NCBI GenBank assembly: GCA_027484655.1
Contig: JAIXSM010000039.1
Span: 1 to 64,000, forward strand
Direction of reading: 5' to 3'
From: Hyphomicrobiales bacterium
Lineage (GTDB): Bacteria > Pseudomonadota > Alphaproteobacteria > Rhizobiales > Beijerinckiaceae
DNA length: 64,000 bases
Part shown: in pieces, positions 40,589 to 50,083 of the stretch
How the letters are laid out: each line of letters begins with the position of its first letter
How positions within the stretch are numbered: the stretch's first letter is position 1
Position numbers and translations under genes: made by a program
The notes under the pieces: model-generated
The model's database searches: none
What the model was told of the DNA's origin: nothing
Seen by the model: the letters and a program-made list of their open reading frames with translations, nothing else

Positions 40589-40825
40589 TCAGCGGATCAC
40601 GTAGGGCAGCAGGCCCATGAAGCGGGCGCGCTTGATCGCCTGGGCGAGTTCGCGCTGCTTCTTGGCCGACACGGCCGTGATGCGGGACGGAACGATCTTG
40701 CCGCGCTCGGAGATGTAGCGCGACAGCAGACGCGTGTCCTTGTAATCGATCTTGGGCGCGCTGGCGCCGGAGAACGGGCAGGTCTTCCGGCGACGGAAGA
40801 ACGGACGACGGGGCGCGGCGGCCAT
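40589..40825 (-). CDS. rpsR: 30S ribosomal protein S18
   Basis: 78 aa, normal length. [66 protein letters not shown] is the S18 signature run in shortened form (positions 6 to 76). The start codon shares one base with the rpsF stop (TGATG), giving tight coupling of S6 and S18, which bind each other in the 30S platform. Confidence 0.97.
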
Positions 40826-41238
40826 CAGATTGCTCCCTCAGCGGATTCGGTGCGACGCGGACGATCGGGGCGCGGCCCGCGGCGCTCGCCGCGCTCGCCG
40901 TCACGATCCGAATCCTCGCGCTTGCGCATCATGGCGGACGGACCTTCCTCCAGCTCCTCGACGCGGATGGTCATGAAGCGGAGAATGTCTTCGTTGATGC
41001 CCATCTGACGTTCCATCTCGGCGACAGCAGCCGCCGGCGCGTCGATGTTGATGAGCGTGAAGTGCGCCTTGCGGTTCTTCTTGATGCGGTACGCGAGCGT
41101 CTTGACGCCCCAGTACTCCACCTTGCCGATCTTGCCGCCGCCGGCTTCGATCACCGACTTGAACTGCTCCGTCATGGCTTCCACCTGCTGGGCGGTGACA
41201 TCCTGACGGGCGAGATAGATGTGCTCGTAAAGAGCCAT
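40825..41238 (-). CDS. rpsF: 30S ribosomal protein S6
   Basis: 137 aa. [13 protein letters not shown] and [21 protein letters not shown] are typical of S6; the C-terminal tail from about residue 110 is Arg/Asp/Glu-rich and disordered ([21 protein letters not shown]), as in many alphaproteobacteria. The Shine-Dalgarno sequence (AGAAAGG) lies inside a leader hairpin, see 41245-41301, suggesting autoregulation. Confidence 0.96.
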
Positions 41239-41244
41239 TGATCT

Positions 41245-41301
41245 GCCTTTCTCTGTTGCTCGAAACTTTCGGCGCGGAGCCCTTCGAGCCCGGAGAAAGG
41301 C
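41245..41301 (-). promoter_or_regulatory. Probable S6:S18 autoregulatory leader of rpsF-rpsR
   Basis: Read as mRNA (minus strand), GCCTTTCTC pairs with GAGAAAGGC (9 bp) and, inside, GCTCGAA pairs with TTCGAGC (7 bp). The internal loop has CGG on one side and AACA on the other, and the apical loop is 18 bases. The 3' arm contains the rpsF Shine-Dalgarno sequence, seven bases before the ATG, so the fold would block translation. A structured S6:S18-binding leader with a bulged CCG element is known in other bacteria; equivalence here is inference. Confidence 0.65.
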
Positions 41302-41580
41302 CCGACGGAAACTGCATTCGAAGGCGGAGACACGGGAAGACGAAGGCGAACCCCCTGCAATTGCCTGCTGAAACAGACAATAGCCTTCCGTTCAGCCCCC
41401 GGCCGGAAGCTGCGAAGCGCGCTTTATACGCGGATCGGGCGGGGATGCAAGAGACACCGCCAAACGGATTGCTGGGGGCGTTGTTGCCTCGTGGGGTTGG
41501 CCGGCGGTGGGTTTTGACCAGTGTTAAAACTTGGCCTAAGGTGTGGATGGCGCCGTCGCTTCCGTCGTAGTGAGGCTCAG
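41302..41580. other. Divergent spacer upstream of rpsF
   Basis: Beyond the rpsF leader hairpin this stretch shows no gene. It should carry the rpsF promoter on the minus strand, and it marks the transition into lower-GC accessory DNA that starts near 41520. Confidence 0.4.
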
Positions 41581-41814
41581 ATGGTTTTCACTCAGGGGTT
41601 TATGTGCTGGTTGAACTCGCTGGCTTCGGGGAATGGACGCGTCAAGTTCCGTTCGTCGCGCGAGGCAGCGGATTATGTTCGGCGCATTCATAACGAGCAA
41701 GGCGGCCCCAACGCGAAAATCATAGCGTTACGCAAGCGATACAACGATGTCATACAGACCAAGAAGGCCAAGGATCAAAATCAGCCTCGAGGAAGTGGAC
41801 ATACTGCCGTTTGA
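41581..41814 (+). CDS. Small protein upstream of a GNAT gene (possible antitoxin)
   Basis: 77 aa from the ATG at 41581 (MVFTQGFMCWLNSLASGNGRVKF). Not recognised by family. It is basic in the centre (FRSSREAADYVRRIHNEQGG) and Gln/Lys-rich toward the end. Its last 68 bases overlap the likely start of the downstream GNAT reading frame (41747), an arrangement seen in toxin-antitoxin pairs, though the protein does not resemble the usual DUF1778/RHH antitoxin. Base composition is visibly lower in GC than the flanking ribosomal block. Confidence 0.45.
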   Translation: MVFTQGFMCWLNSLASGNGRVKFRSSREAADYVRRIHNEQGGPNAKIIALRKRYNDVIQTKKAKDQNQPRGSGHTAV

Positions 41815-42303
41815 TGATCGGACCGTCGTAAACCGGTTTAGTTCCGGCAGGCGGCCGATAGATCAGTTTCTGAAAAACAAAGCCAAAAAGCCGTTCGGCG
41901 CCGTGAATTTCAGATCTTTTGCGCGTATCTGCCCGCCTCCTTCAATGTCATTGGCTATTATGCCTTGCAACTGGGTTCCGACAGCGTTCGTGAACTGCCA
42001 GCAAATCAGAGCAACTATGTCGCGAACTACGTGGCTTTTCCGGCAGTTCACCTGAGTTATCTTGGCGTTCACGAGGATTATCAGGCAAACGGCCTCGGCA
42101 AGCATATGCTTATGGATGCATTCACAAACGTTTGTAAAATCGCTGATTATGCTGGTTTCTACGCCCTGACGCTGCAGTCTCTGGACGCGGAGTCGACCTC
42201 CTTTTATTCCGAACTCGGGTTTACCCCGTACTCGCAAGGACTTGAGAGCCCAAAGATGCTCTATCCAATCCAGACGCTTATCGCGCTCGTCCGCGAGAGC
42301 TAG
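41747..42303 (+). pseudogene. GNAT acetyltransferase, frameshifted
   Basis: A TacT/AtaT-like GNAT protein split over two frames. The N-terminal part (ILPFDDRTVVNRFSSGRRPIDQFLKNKAKK) is read from 41747; the rest continues in the -1 frame as AVRRREFQIFCAYLPASFNVIGYYAL and HLSYLGVHEDYQANGLGKHML (acetyl-CoA loop) and ends FYSELGFTPYSQG to 42303. The break is at the A5 run AAAAAG (41885-41890); one extra A would restore a full protein of about 185 aa. It could be a true inactivating deletion, a sequencing slip, or frameshift decoding. 29 of the 60 bases at 41941-42000 are G/C, low for this window. Confidence 0.7.
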
Positions 42304-42405
42304 AGCATTTTCCGTCCAAGTGGATGCCGGTTGGACGTAAGAAAATGCGTAAAAACAATAATCTAGAGCGGACGACCTGATCCAATCAGGTCGGTTTCCG
42401 CTCTA
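42301..42405. repeat. Dispersed rhizobial-type palindromic repeat
   Basis: Two adjoining imperfect palindromes. First, GCATTTTC-CGTCCAA (42305-42319) pairs with TTGGACG..GAAAATGC (42331-42348). Second, TAGAGCGG (42364-42371) pairs with CCGCTCTA (42398-42405), enclosing CGACCTGAT / ATCAGGTCG. Units that start AGAGCATTTTC, contain GTGGATGCCGGTT and AAGAAAATGCG, and end in CTCTAG are common interspersed elements in Hyphomicrobiales. The GNAT stop codon lies in its first bases. Confidence 0.75.
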
Positions 42406-42538
42406 GCGAACATCGGACCGGCTCGCGGCAGGCCAGAGGAGGGGCTCATTCTCAAGACCGAGCCGGCACGAACCTTGAACGACTTATCGTAAACCTCGCC
42501 GCCACAACGAAAGAACAGGGCGTGTACGCGGCGCAAGC

Positions 42539-43495
42539 TCAGCCTTTGCGCGCGCGTCTCTCGGTCAGGACAAGGTAGAGCGAGGCCGCCATGATGAGCG
42601 CCATGCCCGCAAGGCTGGCCCAGCCGGGAACCTCGCCAAAGAGCAGGAAACCAAGCGCGGCCGCATAGATCACCCGCAGGTAGTCCAGTGGAACGAGAGC
42701 GGTGGCGTCGCCCATGCTCAGGCCGTGGGTGATGAGCGCCTGGCCTCCCATTCCCATGACGCCGATCAGGATAAGCAGCACGAACTCATATCCGGTCGGC
42801 GTCAGCCAGGTGAACGCTGCGGGCAGGGCGGCGAAAAAGGCATTCCAGAACGCGTAGTAAAACATAATGATGCGGGTGGGCTCAGTCGTCTGGAGGTTTT
42901 TGATCGCCACCACCACCAGCGCCGCGAACAGCCCTCCGAACGCGCCGACGATGGCGTTGGGGTCGAACCCTTCGGTGAATGGCTTCGCGTAGAGCATCAC
43001 GCCTGCAAAGCCCACGGCTGCTACGGCGACGCGGCGGAAGCCGACCACTTCGGAGAGGAAGCACAACGCCAGCGGGATCATCCACAACGGGCGCGAGAAC
43101 TGGAGAGCCAGCGAATCCGCCAGCATCATGTGCGTGATCGTCCAGAAGAAACAGGCGTTGCCGCCCGCGCCGACGAGTCCGCGCAGGAAGTGGGCTCCCT
43201 GCCGCTTTGTTCGCAGCGGTTCGAAAAGGTCGCTGCGGAACACCCAAAGCGCGCAGACGAACCCCACCGCGGACCGAAAGAACAGGATTTCAAAGGGAGG
43301 CAGCCGGTTGCCGAGGTACTTGGCCAGCGCCGCCATCAGCACCAGCGCGATGGACCCCATGGAGACCAGAAAGGCGCCGCGGGCGCCCATTGGCAGGGCG
43401 CCCCACCAGGCGTCGATGGGCGCGCGCAGCCGCGCGAGGAAAGATGGCGGCGTTGGCGCCGGGGTTTCAGGGGTCACGATTCGTCCTTTCGCCAC
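42539..43495 (-). CDS. EamA/DMT family transporter
   Basis: 318 aa with ten hydrophobic segments arranged as two EamA repeats, of the drug/metabolite transporter superfamily. The N-terminal half has FEILFFRSAVGFVCALWVF and the second half YLRVIYAAALGFLLFGEVPGW, the usual DMT pattern of charged residue plus helix. Start is a GTG at 43495, in frame with a Pro-rich cytosolic leader; no ATG gives a better start. Such proteins export metabolites or riboflavin/amino acids; the substrate is unknown here. Confidence 0.82.
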   Translation of the reverse strand: MAKGRIVTPETPAPTPPSFLARLRAPIDAWWGALPMGARGAFLVSMGSIALVLMAALAKYLGNRLPPFEILFFRSAVGFVCALWVFRSDLFEPLRTKRQGAHFLRGLVGAGGNACFFWTITHMMLADSLALQFSRPLWMIPLALCFLSEVVGFRRVAVAAVGFAGVMLYAKPFTEGFDPNAIVGAFGGLFAALVVVAIKNLQTTEPTRIIMFYYAFWNAFFAALPAAFTWLTPTGYEFVLLILIGVMGMGGQALITHGLSMGDATALVPLDYLRVIYAAALGFLLFGEVPGWASLAGMALIMAASLYLVLTERRARKG

Positions 43496-45590: not shown

Positions 45591-47744
45591 ATGGCCATGT
45601 TACTGATAGTTTTGGCCGGCTTATTGTCGGTCGTATATGGCGCGGTGACGGTCGCGTCCCTGATGAAGGCGGACGCCGGAAACGCGCGTATGCAAGAGAT
45701 CGCGGCGGCCATCGCCGAGGGCGCGCAGGCGTATCTCAAGCGCCAGTATGTCACGATCGGCATCGTGGGCGCGGTCATCTTCGTTGCGGTCGGCTTCCTG
45801 CTCGGCTGGACCGTCGCCATCGGCTTCCTCGTCGGCGCGGTGCTCTCCGGCGCCGCGGGCTTCATTGGCATGAACGTTTCGGTTCGCGCCAACGTCCGCA
45901 CGGCGCAGGCCGCCACCCAGTCTCTCGCTGGCGGTCTCGACATCGCCTTCAAGGCGGGCGCCATCACCGGCCTTCTGGTCGCTGGCCTCGCGCTTCTCGG
46001 CGTCGCTGTTTACTTCTGGCTCCTCACCGGCCCGGGCGGGCTCGCGCCCAACAGCCGCACCGTCATCGACGCCCTGGTGGCGCTCGGCTTTGGCGCGTCG
46101 CTGATCTCGATCTTCGCGCGCCTCGGCGGCGGCATCTTCACCAAGGGCGCCGACGTGGGCGCGGATCTGGTGGGCAAGGTTGAGGCCGGCATCCCCGAGG
46201 ACGACCCGCGCAACCCCGCCACGATCGCCGACAACGTGGGCGACAACGTGGGCGATTGCGCCGGCATGGCGGCGGACCTGTTCGAGACCTACGCCGTGAC
46301 CGTGGTCGCGACGATGGTGCTGGGCGCGATCTTCTTCGCTGGTCAGTCCGCTCTGGTCGCCTCGATGGTGTATCCGCTGGCGATCTGCGCGGCGTGCATC
46401 GTCACCTCAATCGCCGGCACGTACTTCGTGAAGCTGGGCGCCAACAACTCGATCATGGGCGCGCTCTACAAGGGCCTCATCGTGACGGGCGTGCTGTCGG
46501 TCGGCGGTCTCGCCCTCGCCACGCACTTCCTGCCCAACGGCTGGGGCGTGATGGGCACAGCGAACGGCGTCGCCATCACCGGCTCTGCCCTGTTCGTCTG
46601 CGGTCTCATCGGCCTTGCGGTCACCGCCGCGATTGTGTGGATCACCGAGTACTACACCGGCACGGGCAAGCGCCCGGTGGTGTCCATCGCGCAGGCGTCG
46701 GTCACCGGCCATGGCACGAACGTGATCCAGGGTCTCGCCGTGTCGCTTGAGTCCACCGCGCTTCCGGCGCTGGTGATCGTGGGCGGCATCATCTCCACCT
46801 TCCAGCTCGCAGGCCTTTACGGCACGGCCATCGCCGTCACCACCATGCTCGGCCTCGCCGGCATGATCGTGGCGCTCGACGCGTTCGGCCCCGTGACGGA
46901 CAACGCGGGCGGCATCGCGGAGATGGCGGGTCTTCCCAAGGAGGTTCGCCAGTCGACCGACGCGCTCGACGCGGTTGGCAACACCACGAAGGCGGTGACG
47001 AAGGGCTACGCGATCGGCTCCGCCGGTCTCGGCGCGCTCGTGCTGTTCGCGGCGTACTCGTACGACCTCAACTACTTTATTACGGAAGCGAATAAAGCAG
47101 GGTCTACGGTTGCGCCGTACTTCAAGGGCGTCGAGCAGGTCTCCTTCGATCTGTCGAACCCCTACGTGGTTGCTGGCCTCATCTTCGGCGGCCTGATCCC
47201 GTACCTGTTCGGCGGCATCGCCATGACGGCGGTGGGTCGCGCTGCCGGTTCCGTGGTCGAGGAAGTTCGTCGTCAGTTCCGCGAGATGCCGGGCATCATG
47301 CAGGGCACGCAGCGTCCCGACTACGGCCGCGCGGTGGACATGCTGACCCGCTCGGCGATCAAGGAGATGATCGTTCCCTCGCTGCTGCCGGTTCTGGCGC
47401 CGCTCGTCGCCTACTTTGGCGTGCTGCTCATCTCCGGCTCGAAGGCCCACGCCTTCGCGGCGCTGGGCGCCATGCTGCTGGGCGTGATCGTCAACGGCCT
47501 GTTCGTCGCCATCTCGATGACCTCGGGCGGCGGCGCGTGGGACAACGCGAAGAAGTCCTTCGAGGATGGCTTCGTGGACAAGGACGGCGTGAAGCACCTC
47601 AAGGGCTCGGACGCGCACAAGGCGTCTGTGACCGGCGACACCGTCGGCGACCCCTACAAGGACACCGCCGGCCCGGCCGTGAACCCGGCCATCAAGATCA
47701 CGAACATCGTGGCCTTGCTGCTGCTGGCGGTCCTCGCGCACTAA
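45591..47744 (+). CDS. hppA: K+-independent membrane H+-translocating pyrophosphatase
   Basis: 717 aa with about 16 helices, hydrolysing PPi and pumping protons across the membrane. The PPi/Mg site is intact: [54 protein letters not shown] (in segments around 180-233) and [25 protein letters not shown] carries Lys467 at the position that distinguishes K+-independent from K+-dependent enzymes (Ala there). Such pumps are common in Rhodospirillum-type and rhizobial alphaproteobacteria. A strong terminator follows. Confidence 0.94.
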
Positions 47745-47768
47745 GCCAGCCCGCAACGTGAAACGCAG

Positions 47769-47797
47769 AACCCCGCGGGAAACCGCGGGGTTTTTTT
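47769..47797 (+). terminator. Rho-independent terminator of hppA
   Basis: AACCCCGCGG (47769-47778), loop GAAA, CCGCGGGGTT (47783-47792), then a run of seven T. A textbook intrinsic terminator 25 bases after the hppA stop. Confidence 0.92.
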
Positions 47798-47885
47798 GTT
47801 TCCGGCGCCTCTAACTTGAGCTATACATTGAGTGTTAAATTTTCCGATTTGTGTTTTCGTTCCATTTGCCCTGACGAGCCGCGAT

Positions 47886-48389
47886 ATGACGGATCACCTT
47901 TTGACAGCGGCGGACAAAGAGGAGGCTCTGTCGCGCGCTTACGTCGAAGCCATTGCGGCGTCGGCCGGCTATACGACCGCCGTTCGAAACTTGGACCGGG
48001 ATGGTGTTGATCTTCAGATCAATGCTGGGGGGCTAATGCGCCCAAGTCTCGATCTTCAGTTAAAGGCAACGATTAATCTTGGGTCAGCCTCGCAGGGTGT
48101 CTACCGTTACCCGCTGCAGCGTCGTAATTACGACTTGCTCAGGCTGCCCACCGTCGTGCCGCGGATCCTTGTTCTGCTGTCGTTGCCTCCGGACGAAAGC
48201 CAGTGGATGAGCGTCACACCGGAGGAGTTAGTCATCCGCAAGTGCGCCTATTGGGTGAGCTTGCAGGGGTATCGCGAGACCGATAATACAACCAGTGTTA
48301 CGATCACGATCCCAGAACAGAATCGGTTTGACGTGGCGGCGCTCCGGCGCCTGATGGATGGGGCAAGAAACACAAACGGAGCAGTCTGA
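47886..48389 (+). CDS. DUF4365 domain protein (possible PD-(D/E)XK-like nuclease)
   Basis: 167 aa from the ATG at 47886 (MTDHLLTAADKEEALS). The family core is visible as RNLDRDGVDLQINAGG and PSLDLQLKAT, a pattern of Glu21 in the first helix, Asp39/Asp42, then Gln58-x-Lys60. That resembles a restriction-endonuclease-like active site with Q in place of D/E before xK; this is inference. The stop shares a base with the next start (TGATG). The 60 bases 47821-47880 upstream have 24 G/C, well below the window's norm, suggesting acquired DNA. It is the first gene of a two-gene unit. Confidence 0.7.
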   Translation: MTDHLLTAADKEEALSRAYVEAIAASAGYTTAVRNLDRDGVDLQINAGGLMRPSLDLQLKATINLGSASQGVYRYPLQRRNYDLLRLPTVVPRILVLLSLPPDESQWMSVTPEELVIRKCAYWVSLQGYRETDNTTSVTITIPEQNRFDVAALRRLMDGARNTNGAV

Positions 48390-49528
48390 TGCGAGCGCAC
48401 ATCTTTGATGTGGCGGCCCTTCGGGCAGTGAGCCCAGCTGCGCTTTCCGGGTTTGCGCGCTCCGAAGGATGGTCCAAGATCGACGCCTTCGGAGACCATG
48501 CCGACGTTTATGCCGGCGACGGTTTGCCTGAGATCATCTTGCCACGCACCGAGCAGGTTGGCGACTACGCTGCCCTGATGTCGCGGTTGATCGGCGTCTT
48601 TGCCGATGTCTCAAGTCGAGACGAACTCGCGATTTATCGTGATCTCATTGTGGCCGACCGTGACGTCATCCGGGTTCGCGCGGAGGGTGACGACGATGGC
48701 GCGGTTGAGTTGGAAGACGGCGTCGCGATCGTAACTCACGCAAAGGAGATGCTCCTGGCCGCCGCGTGCGCTGCGCGCAATCCCAAGGCCCTTTATCGGG
48801 CGGGAGCAAACAGGGAGGCGACGGAGTACATGAGGCGGGTCAAGCTTGGGCAAACCGAGCATGGCAGCTTCGTGATTACGCTGCTGGCTCCGGTGCCGCC
48901 GCTTATCAGTCACCAACCATCGATTCCCGGCGCGCAATGGGATCCTTTCGATGATGAGCCGCTTGAAAGAATGGTGACACGCAGGTTGGCCAACTCATTG
49001 AACGCGTCGAGAGTTGCGCTTGAGGCAGTTGGTTCAGGCGAGTCGTCTGCATTTGACGAGGCGGTGCTATCCGGCGTCAGCGCAAATCTTTGCGAAGCGG
49101 TCGCCGAGTTGATCAAGCGGGCGGGCGACCTGACTATCGGAATCACGTGGGCGCGGACGCGACCCGCGCCCGAAAGACATACGCGGATTACCTTCTCTAC
49201 CTCGGATTCTGGAATTCTGAGTGAGGCTGCGAGGACATTCCGCCAGCGGGAGCCAAGGCCCGACGTCACGCTCCACGCTACAGTCCATAAGTTGAGCCGG
49301 GACCATCACGAGGAGCATGGCGCTGCAACGCTCAAGGCGGTAATCGACGAAAAATTATGCTCGGTCGGCGTCCGCTTCGATCCCCATGACTTCGACAAGG
49401 CGACCCACGCAATTCGAGACAAGACCCCGCTTATTGTAACCGGCGATCTGGAGCGAGTGGGCCAACGGTGGCAGATGTCGAGGGCAAAGGTCCACGACGT
49501 TCCCAACGCTACCGACCCTGACGATTGA
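48389..49528 (+). CDS. Uncharacterised protein paired with DUF4365
   Basis: 379 aa, no recognised domain. Features: LPEIILPRTEQVGDYAALMSRLI around residues 46-68, the block IYRDLIVADRDVIRVRA near 80-95, and GQTEHGSFVITLLAPVPP near 153-170; the C-terminal third carries DVTLHATVHKLSRDHHEEHGAATL and PLIVTGDLERVGQRW. Mixed alpha/beta, no signal peptide or membrane helix, acidic overall. It is translationally coupled to the DUF4365 protein by a one-base overlap, so the two very likely form a complex or act in one process. Its job is unknown; a defence or nucleic-acid role is a guess from the partner. Confidence 0.65.
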   Translation: MRAHIFDVAALRAVSPAALSGFARSEGWSKIDAFGDHADVYAGDGLPEIILPRTEQVGDYAALMSRLIGVFADVSSRDELAIYRDLIVADRDVIRVRAEGDDDGAVELEDGVAIVTHAKEMLLAAACAARNPKALYRAGANREATEYMRRVKLGQTEHGSFVITLLAPVPPLISHQPSIPGAQWDPFDDEPLERMVTRRLANSLNASRVALEAVGSGESSAFDEAVLSGVSANLCEAVAELIKRAGDLTIGITWARTRPAPERHTRITFSTSDSGILSEAARTFRQREPRPDVTLHATVHKLSRDHHEEHGAATLKAVIDEKLCSVGVRFDPHDFDKATHAIRDKTPLIVTGDLERVGQRWQMSRAKVHDVPNATDPDD

Positions 49529-49539
49529 GGCACAGACAC

Positions 49540-49567
49540 AAAAAAGGCGACCCGAAGGCCGCCTTTG
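49540..49567 (-). terminator. Terminator of bamE
   Basis: AAAGGCG and CGCCTTT arms around the tetraloop region ACCCGAAGGC, with six T after the stem on the minus strand, 25 bases after the bamE stop. On the plus strand it would also follow the uncharacterised gene's stop. Confidence 0.65.
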
Positions 49568-49591
49568 GAACGTGCGGGCGCCGTCCGCGGA

Positions 49592-50083
49592 TCAATCGAA
49601 CCGCAGCAGGCCCGTGAACATGTTGCGCAGGAAGGAAGCTTCCGGCCCCGCGGTCGGCGTCGTGCGGGTCACGAAGTCGATGAGCCGTCCGTCCTCGATG
49701 CCGTAGTTCGCCACGCGCTGAACGCGCTTGCTCCGGTCGAAGTAGACCGCGAACACGCGCTGGTCGGTGACCTTGGGCTGCATGAACGCGGCCGCGCGTT
49801 CTGTCTTCTGGCTGATGTAGTACCAGGCGTCGCCGCCCACCGTCGATGTCGTGGAGGGGGTGCCCATAACGACCAGCACCTGCTCAGCCGATGCGCCGAC
49901 GCGCACCTGCTCCTGCGCCTTCACGTCGATCACGTAGCCGCGATGATGAGTGCCGTCGAAGCCGATGCAACCACCGAGGGCGAGGGCGCACGCGAGCGCC
50001 CCGGCAAGGCCAAGCCCCTTCCGCCCGTTTCTGCGCGACGTCCCGGTTGAGCCAGTCCGCATCACGCCTGCCGCATTGGCCAT
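49592..50083 (-). CDS. bamE: Outer-membrane assembly lipoprotein BamE (SmpA/OmlA)
   Basis: 163 aa. A lipoprotein signal with lipobox LALGGC places the mature protein in the outer membrane, as a BAM-complex subunit working with BamA (7939). The BamE fold shows RVGASAEQVLVVMGTPSTTS and GGDAWYYISQKTERAAAF, then KVTDQRVFAVYFD. The ATG at 50083 follows CGGAG seven bases upstream. The N-terminal cytosolic leader before the signal is about 25 residues, rather long. Confidence 0.88.
   Translation of the reverse strand: MANAAGVMRTGSTGTSRRNGRKGLGLAGALACALALGGCIGFDGTHHRGYVIDVKAQEQVRVGASAEQVLVVMGTPSTTSTVGGDAWYYISQKTERAAAFMQPKVTDQRVFAVYFDRSKRVQRVANYGIEDGRLIDFVTRTTPTAGPEASFLRNMFTGLLRFD

Follow-up and report, generated by a model that had tools for sequence, protein, structure and literature searches.

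A two-gene unit carried by the genome of a Hyphomicrobiales bacterium (contig JAIXSM010000039.1, of which positions 1 to 64,000, hereafter the window, were analysed) is by its sequence a member of PDC-M02, a candidate system of the PADLOC collection made of the genes M02A and M02B. With a probability of about 0.55, we read it as a mobile system of two components directed against phages or plasmids, in which M02B would sense the invader and switch on the nuclease M02A. A nuclease fold with its catalytic residues in the first protein, an OB fold in the second, tight pairing of the two and recent acquisition are all supported by prediction and conservation. For the genome, the finding is an ordinary one, a catalogued candidate acquired within well-defined limits. 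The features of the pair are the following, with SPARDA standing for the short-Argonaute systems discussed below.

47886-48389, plus strand: M02A gene, 167 aa, predicted standalone DUF4365/DREN nuclease
47994-47996, plus strand: M02A Asp37, a further conserved residue
48009-48011, plus strand: M02A Asp42, putative catalytic residue
48057-48059, plus strand: M02A Gln58, putative catalytic residue
48063-48065, plus strand: M02A Lys60, putative catalytic residue
48219-48293, plus strand: M02A segment, residues ~112-136, with a CAYWVSL block, absent from the two SPARDA DREN domains aligned
48389, plus strand: stop and start codons sharing one base (TGATG), presumably coupling the translation of the two genes
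48389-49528, plus strand: M02B gene, 379 aa, of a family without a Pfam name
49250-49504, plus strand: C-terminal OB fold of M02B, residues ~288-372, in the predicted model

Both open reading frames were found where the first-pass annotation of this DNA had drawn them, with the TGATG common to both. M02A matches DUF4365, the family that had been proposed for it, in Pfam (E 7.2e-26), and the PADLOC model PDC-M02A over nearly its full length (E 5.8e-61). Its partner had been described as having no nameable domain. This holds for Pfam and NCBIfam, where M02B has no match, but not for PADLOC, whose family PDC-M02B it matches nearly full length (E 4.6e-128). Both models are matched by adjacent genes, in the same order as in relatives, and nothing that was compared differs from PDC-M02. 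The name PDC-M02 was not found in the literature searched, outside which lie most subscription journals and bioRxiv, nor was "M02" found in the accessible parts of papers on PADLOC candidates (one of these, checked for PDC-M only, gave M32). PDC-M02 is catalogued as a candidate anti-phage system, of which, as far as we found, no explanation appeared in that literature.

Conservation, overlap and correlation were counted on 30 complete pairs. Dropped from this set were damaged, short or contig-end copies (L006, L007, L010, L013, L022, L023, L024, L026, L031, L041) and repeated sequences or records (L004, L033, L038, L040, L042, L043, L045); L009, a 64-residue match with E 8.6e-4, had been left out before the profile search, and L101 is outside the analysis. 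Asp42, Gln58 and Lys60, which form the nuclease-like D...QxK pattern at the positions first proposed, are identical in 30/30 pairs, and are retained in the dropped copies L007 and L010. Asp37 is likewise present in 30/30 pairs in this alignment, yet it is not an invariant column in another one. The predicted secondary structure of M02A comprises a helix (residues 8-26), strands 30-33, 43-46, 54-62 and 72-78, a second helix (79-86) and a strand (93-99), and the model has the restriction-endonuclease-like core on which the initial proposal depended. Its best structural match is the DREN domain of SPARDA systems; the fold is also near Hjc and I-Ssp6803I, and more weakly EcoRV. M02A is therefore probably a freestanding DREN-type PD-(D/E)XK nuclease, judging from its model.

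The link between M02A and SPARDA is carried by this structure comparison. Between sequences, hhalign with alignment A4 gave no information on the one SPARDA-type protein compared (probability 1.7, E 0.03), and with the M02A profile, SPARDA-type proteins came up at only ~6e-4 (L102). Sequence searches of the Protein Data Bank (PDB) with P0001 or P0002 gave no relatives, the antibody matches being due to chance; with alignment A2, EcoRV came up only weakly (best 0.012), and with A1, one chance match was obtained. When M02A was aligned by MAFFT to the DREN portions of L102 and L104, its segment around residues 112-136 had no counterpart, and we infer that it may be a contact with the partner.

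For M02B, an AlphaFold2 model built from 20 sequences reached a mean predicted local distance difference test score of 86.4 and a predicted template modelling score of 0.72. Structural matches to its C-terminal OB fold include SilF (9.4), the Streptomyces SSB (8.1), RecG (7.9) and PriB (7.6-7.8), and those listed cover mainly residues 288-379; for residues 1-287, no convincing PDB match was found among them. Foldseek returned nothing at E ≤0.001 for this model, its best match being an SSB at 0.025, and a Pfam OB family was touched by 2 of 20 M02B relatives (best 0.023). No SPARDA or APAZ chain is present among the 50 matches listed. In BFVD, the best structural match is gp37 of Leptospira phage LE1 (E 7e-19), and the second, a weak one, is a phage DUF6575 protein (E 1.8e-6, template modelling score 0.33). 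Residues W28, G159 and S160 are conserved in 30/30 pairs, T156 and G352 in 29/30. Two blocks of M02B had been thought conserved: GQTExGSF largely is, by its T156, G159 and S160, whereas in LPRTE only P52 is (28/30).

M02A and M02B behave as one unit, on which the initial proposal had likewise depended. They overlap in 28 of the 30 complete pairs, the overlap being exactly 1 or 4 nt long in 25 of them, although start codons were chosen by rule, so that some overlaps are uncertain; for L002, where the two possible starts give an 11-nt gap or a 4-nt overlap, the overlap was counted. A gap replaces the overlap in phage LE1 (2 nt) and on a Rhizobium plasmid (4 nt). Moreover, identities among M02A and among M02B proteins correlate (r = 0.83, reached by 0/5000 permutations). 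Part of this comes from shared descent, yet it argues against frequent swapping of partners. In the class, DUF4365 was found at 11 places in 10 of 385 genomes. The five standalone genes (frames of 166-209 aa) are all followed by M02B, truncated in one case and altered at its end in another. The six longer proteins have no M02B within flanks of ~1.5 kb, the frame of L108 leaving the stretch, so that its 3' side is out of view. M02B itself was found in 5/385 class genomes with alignment A3 (in G065, a contig end removes most of M02A), and in 6/385 with PDLC04298, the sixth at E 8.6e-4. DUF4365 also occurs in other settings in the same class: it is fused to TPR repeats in L108:1432-3414, and frames of 299 and 342 aa (L106:1462-2358, L109:1384-2409) have no full-length APAZ-type PADLOC match.

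Damaged copies were encountered as well. In L022, M02A was not found and M02B is short; in L024, M02A is short. On a Pigmentibacter plasmid (L013), a whole M02B lies downstream of an M02A reduced to a fragment; by eye, the annotated 110-aa protein (L013:7672-8004) runs from a transposase-like fragment into a remnant of the M02A end, and PADLOC gave no match for it. Genome G035 has an M02A with D42, Q58 and K60 (L010) preceding an M02B cut to ~141-145 aa (L121:2047-3032), and ~19 kb away a second pair (L120:4162-7985), whose M02B has an altered end.

The pair was recently acquired in this genome, as supported by prediction and conservation. It is single-copy there and present in 1/51 genomes of the genus, while BamE is found in 47/51. 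It lies downstream of hppA (H+-pyrophosphatase) and is followed by the convergent bamE and then TerC. Against sister species G428 (L071), alignment of the window stops at 47799 and resumes at 49538, 8 nt separating the two matches; against G397 (L122), the sister whose BamE is closest in identity, it stops at 47801 and resumes at 49586. The empty site is thus visible in sister species, and the insert spans approximately 47800-49537, its edges being uncertain by some bases. In our reading, this cassette carries the two genes of the pair only, without an integrase. The features of the insertion site are:

47767-47794, plus strand: hairpin resembling a terminator, following hppA at the left edge of the slot (hairpin scan)
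47800-49537, no strand: inserted cassette, edges approximate, flanks aligning to sister species G428 (L071)
47800-47885, plus strand: AT-rich leader, presumed promoter, 20 G/C per 60 nt from 47808
49543-49566, minus strand: hairpin resembling a terminator, following bamE at the right edge of the slot (hairpin scan)

The left hairpin is nearly identical in G397 (L122), while L071 has there a hairpin of another sequence; the right one is aligned in L071 and L055, and lies outside the L122 alignment, whose match starts at 49586. Such hairpins are no commoner than in shuffles (2 observed versus 1.9).

Base composition is in keeping with the lower-GC DNA reported at first: the pair has a GC content of 0.593, while that of hppA is 0.669 and that of the window 0.656; its third-position GC is 0.65-0.67, that of hppA 0.90. 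The low-GC promoter region announced upstream is indeed AT-rich, but its count of 24 G/C per 60 has to be corrected to 20 for the 60-mer starting at 47808, a value as low being found in only 3 of the 63,940 60-mers of the window. A promoter scan of 47700-49700 did not find a sigma-70-like promoter. A second lower-GC stretch (0.57-0.58) was seen elsewhere in the window, at 41001-43000, between an S6-like ribosomal protein gene (40825-41238, by eye) and a transporter-like gene (42539-43495).

The site was compared in 44 sister genomes, in 39 of which hppA was within reach, and convergent with bamE in 39/39. The gap between the two genes, measured between ends of protein matches, ranges from 110 to 9045 nt; in 17/39 genomes it is at most 254 nt, too short for the pair. 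The hppA-bamE slot (window 47745-49591) thus varies across the genus and is a hotspot, if a small one, for insertions into the chromosome. Toxin-antitoxin genes, of two different pairs, occupy it in at least 5 of the 39 sister genomes: a Gp49-type toxin with an HTH antitoxin (HTH_37) in L054, L060 and L061, and TacA with a GNAT protein in L088 and L089 (calls by Pfam for L061 and L089, by eye for L054, L060 and L088).

Beyond this genus, the pair is found on mobile elements. Plasmid hosts belong to Alpha- and Betaproteobacteria, Bdellovibrionota, Bacillota, Spirochaetota and Actinomycetota; query P0002 retrieved 10 plasmid records and relative L036 retrieved 15, the two sets overlapping. A distant DNA search of plasmids had Tistrella as sole match, and nothing in the E. 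coli collection matched the L020 DNA. Among viral contigs, alignment A1 yielded 21 loci from 48 stretches, some of them near-duplicates, and A3 added none, whereas the single-protein query had given one genome locus and no viral locus. The phage search with P0002 found nothing; with relatives L016 and L036, it found phage LE1 of Leptospira, as well as two equally long records of Mycobacterium abscessus prophages. In viral contigs, the pair precedes terminase and portal genes (L030) or a terminase gene (L044); in L029 and L036, genes of tail or virion type lie nearby. Of 10 neighbour proteins on these contigs, 2 had no PHROG match. In a Mycobacterium abscessus prophage (L097:398-2160), annotation begins with the two genes of the pair, and a WXG/polymorphic toxin block lies a few genes away.

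Defence neighbours were present at 5 of 21 inspected loci, a raw count without control loci. The 21 were the window (Pfam), 11 annotated plasmid or phage loci (L011-L014, L016, L017, L096-L100), 8 viral contigs and G035, and most were checked by annotation or one to two proteins only. The pair adjoins a type IIG restriction-modification system in phage LE1, lies beside Druantia III in Rhizobium, CRISPR I-E (by annotation) in Streptomyces, and DUF262 proteins and AbiD in Entomospira, and in G035 the pair at L120:4162-7985 comes directly behind Septu PtuA and PtuB. PADLOC detected no defence protein among the neighbours tested at L019, L020 and L027 (two proteins each), or at L017, L028, L029, L030, L035, L036 and L100 (one protein each).

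Three other explanations were weighed, and all rank below a sensing partner that commands a nuclease. The pair could be a toxin-antitoxin or plasmid-addiction module kept for the stability of its element, with M02A as nuclease toxin, M02B as the antitoxin binding it, and any effect on phages secondary. Two coupled genes on plasmids and prophages would fit, as would the Gp49/HTH_37 and TacA/GNAT pairs sitting in the same slot in sister species. However, we consider this unlikely: M02B, with its 379 aa, is over twice as large as M02A, it is found where M02A is lost or damaged (L013, L022, L024), and in G035 an M02A with its three catalytic residues stands beside an M02B of ~141-145 aa, albeit with the second, altered pair present. 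In addition, the DREN of SPARDA was found inactive by itself.

Somewhat less probable still is a restriction-like direct immunity, in which M02B would recognise phage DNA by some feature (its ends, modification or single-strand gaps), and M02A would cut that DNA only, without collateral damage. The likeness of the fold to Hjc, I-Ssp6803I and, more weakly, EcoRV, together with the OB domain of M02B, speaks for it; on the other hand, the nearest solved relative of M02A comes from a collateral nuclease system, and no specificity domain was identified. Finally, the same Hjc-like fold next to an SSB/PriB-like helper might form a recombination or DNA-processing module, serving the element's own replication or packaging. 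This we judge very improbable, since the pair is rare (5/385 class genomes), since its position is scattered (also next to genes of tail or virion type in L029 and L036, and by itself at a bare chromosomal site), and since the SPARDA match of M02A is the stronger one.

We come back to the two-component system of sensor and nuclease. That the pair might act in defence had been proposed from the start; its candidate status in PADLOC, its mobile hosts and some defence neighbours make this likely. The partner, then called uncharacterised, was already listed as PDC-M02B. We infer the defence activity itself, and with it the complex, its activation by clustering and its trigger, along the following lines. 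M02B would be the sensor and regulator of M02A: through its OB domain, it would bind either foreign nucleic acid or an intermediate of protein and DNA, and with its N-terminal part it would hold M02A and then assemble it. Upon recognition of the target, M02B would gather M02A subunits, by analogy with clustering in SPARDA, and the nuclease activity thus released would destroy the invader or stop the infected cell.

Three known systems bear on this proposal. SPARDA (DREN-APAZ with a short prokaryotic Argonaute) shares with M02A the DUF4365/DREN nuclease, the same D, Q and K, and the same fold; it is a collateral nuclease system whose DREN shows no activity as a monomer and becomes active on clustering into tetramers. 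Unlike SPARDA, M02A is a DREN of 167 aa without APAZ fusion (the two SPARDA-type frames found in the class have 468 and 498 aa), and no short prokaryotic Argonaute adjoins it, its neighbours being M02B, hppA, bamE and TerC. The partner is a separate OB-containing protein, whose PADLOC matches are all PDC-M02B among the 25 of 38 listed. M02A also differs from the two aligned SPARDA DREN domains by Asp37 and by the ~112-136 segment. Phage LE1 gp38/gp37 is a full M02A/M02B pair on a temperate phage, which differs in being phage-borne, next to a type IIG restriction enzyme, and separated by a 2-nt gap. DUF6575 (PF20215), a named domain of one validated E. coli defence system according to Vassallo et al. 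2022 (PMC9519451), is linked to M02B by the second BFVD match. None of 20 M02B relatives matches PF20215 at E up to 1. As DUF6575 gave 2 weak matches in 349 phylum genomes and no usable family alignment, this link stays weak, and M02B and DUF6575 are only possibly distant relatives.

Taken further, the comparison with SPARDA leads to a proposal that we put forward tentatively, as a real possibility short of an even chance: PDC-M02 may be a guide-free SPARDA counterpart, in which a collateral DREN, uncoupled from Argonaute, would be placed under an OB-fold sensor of new overall architecture, recognising phage nucleic-acid structure directly and activating by clustering. The system is small (~1.74 kb) and has a catalytic triad that can be tested, and the invariant residues W28, G159 and S160 make a structure of M02B worthwhile. 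If this proposal is true, DREN would serve two recognition heads, an RNA-guided Argonaute and an OB-fold protein, and the effector logic of activation by clustering would be separated from the use of a guide.
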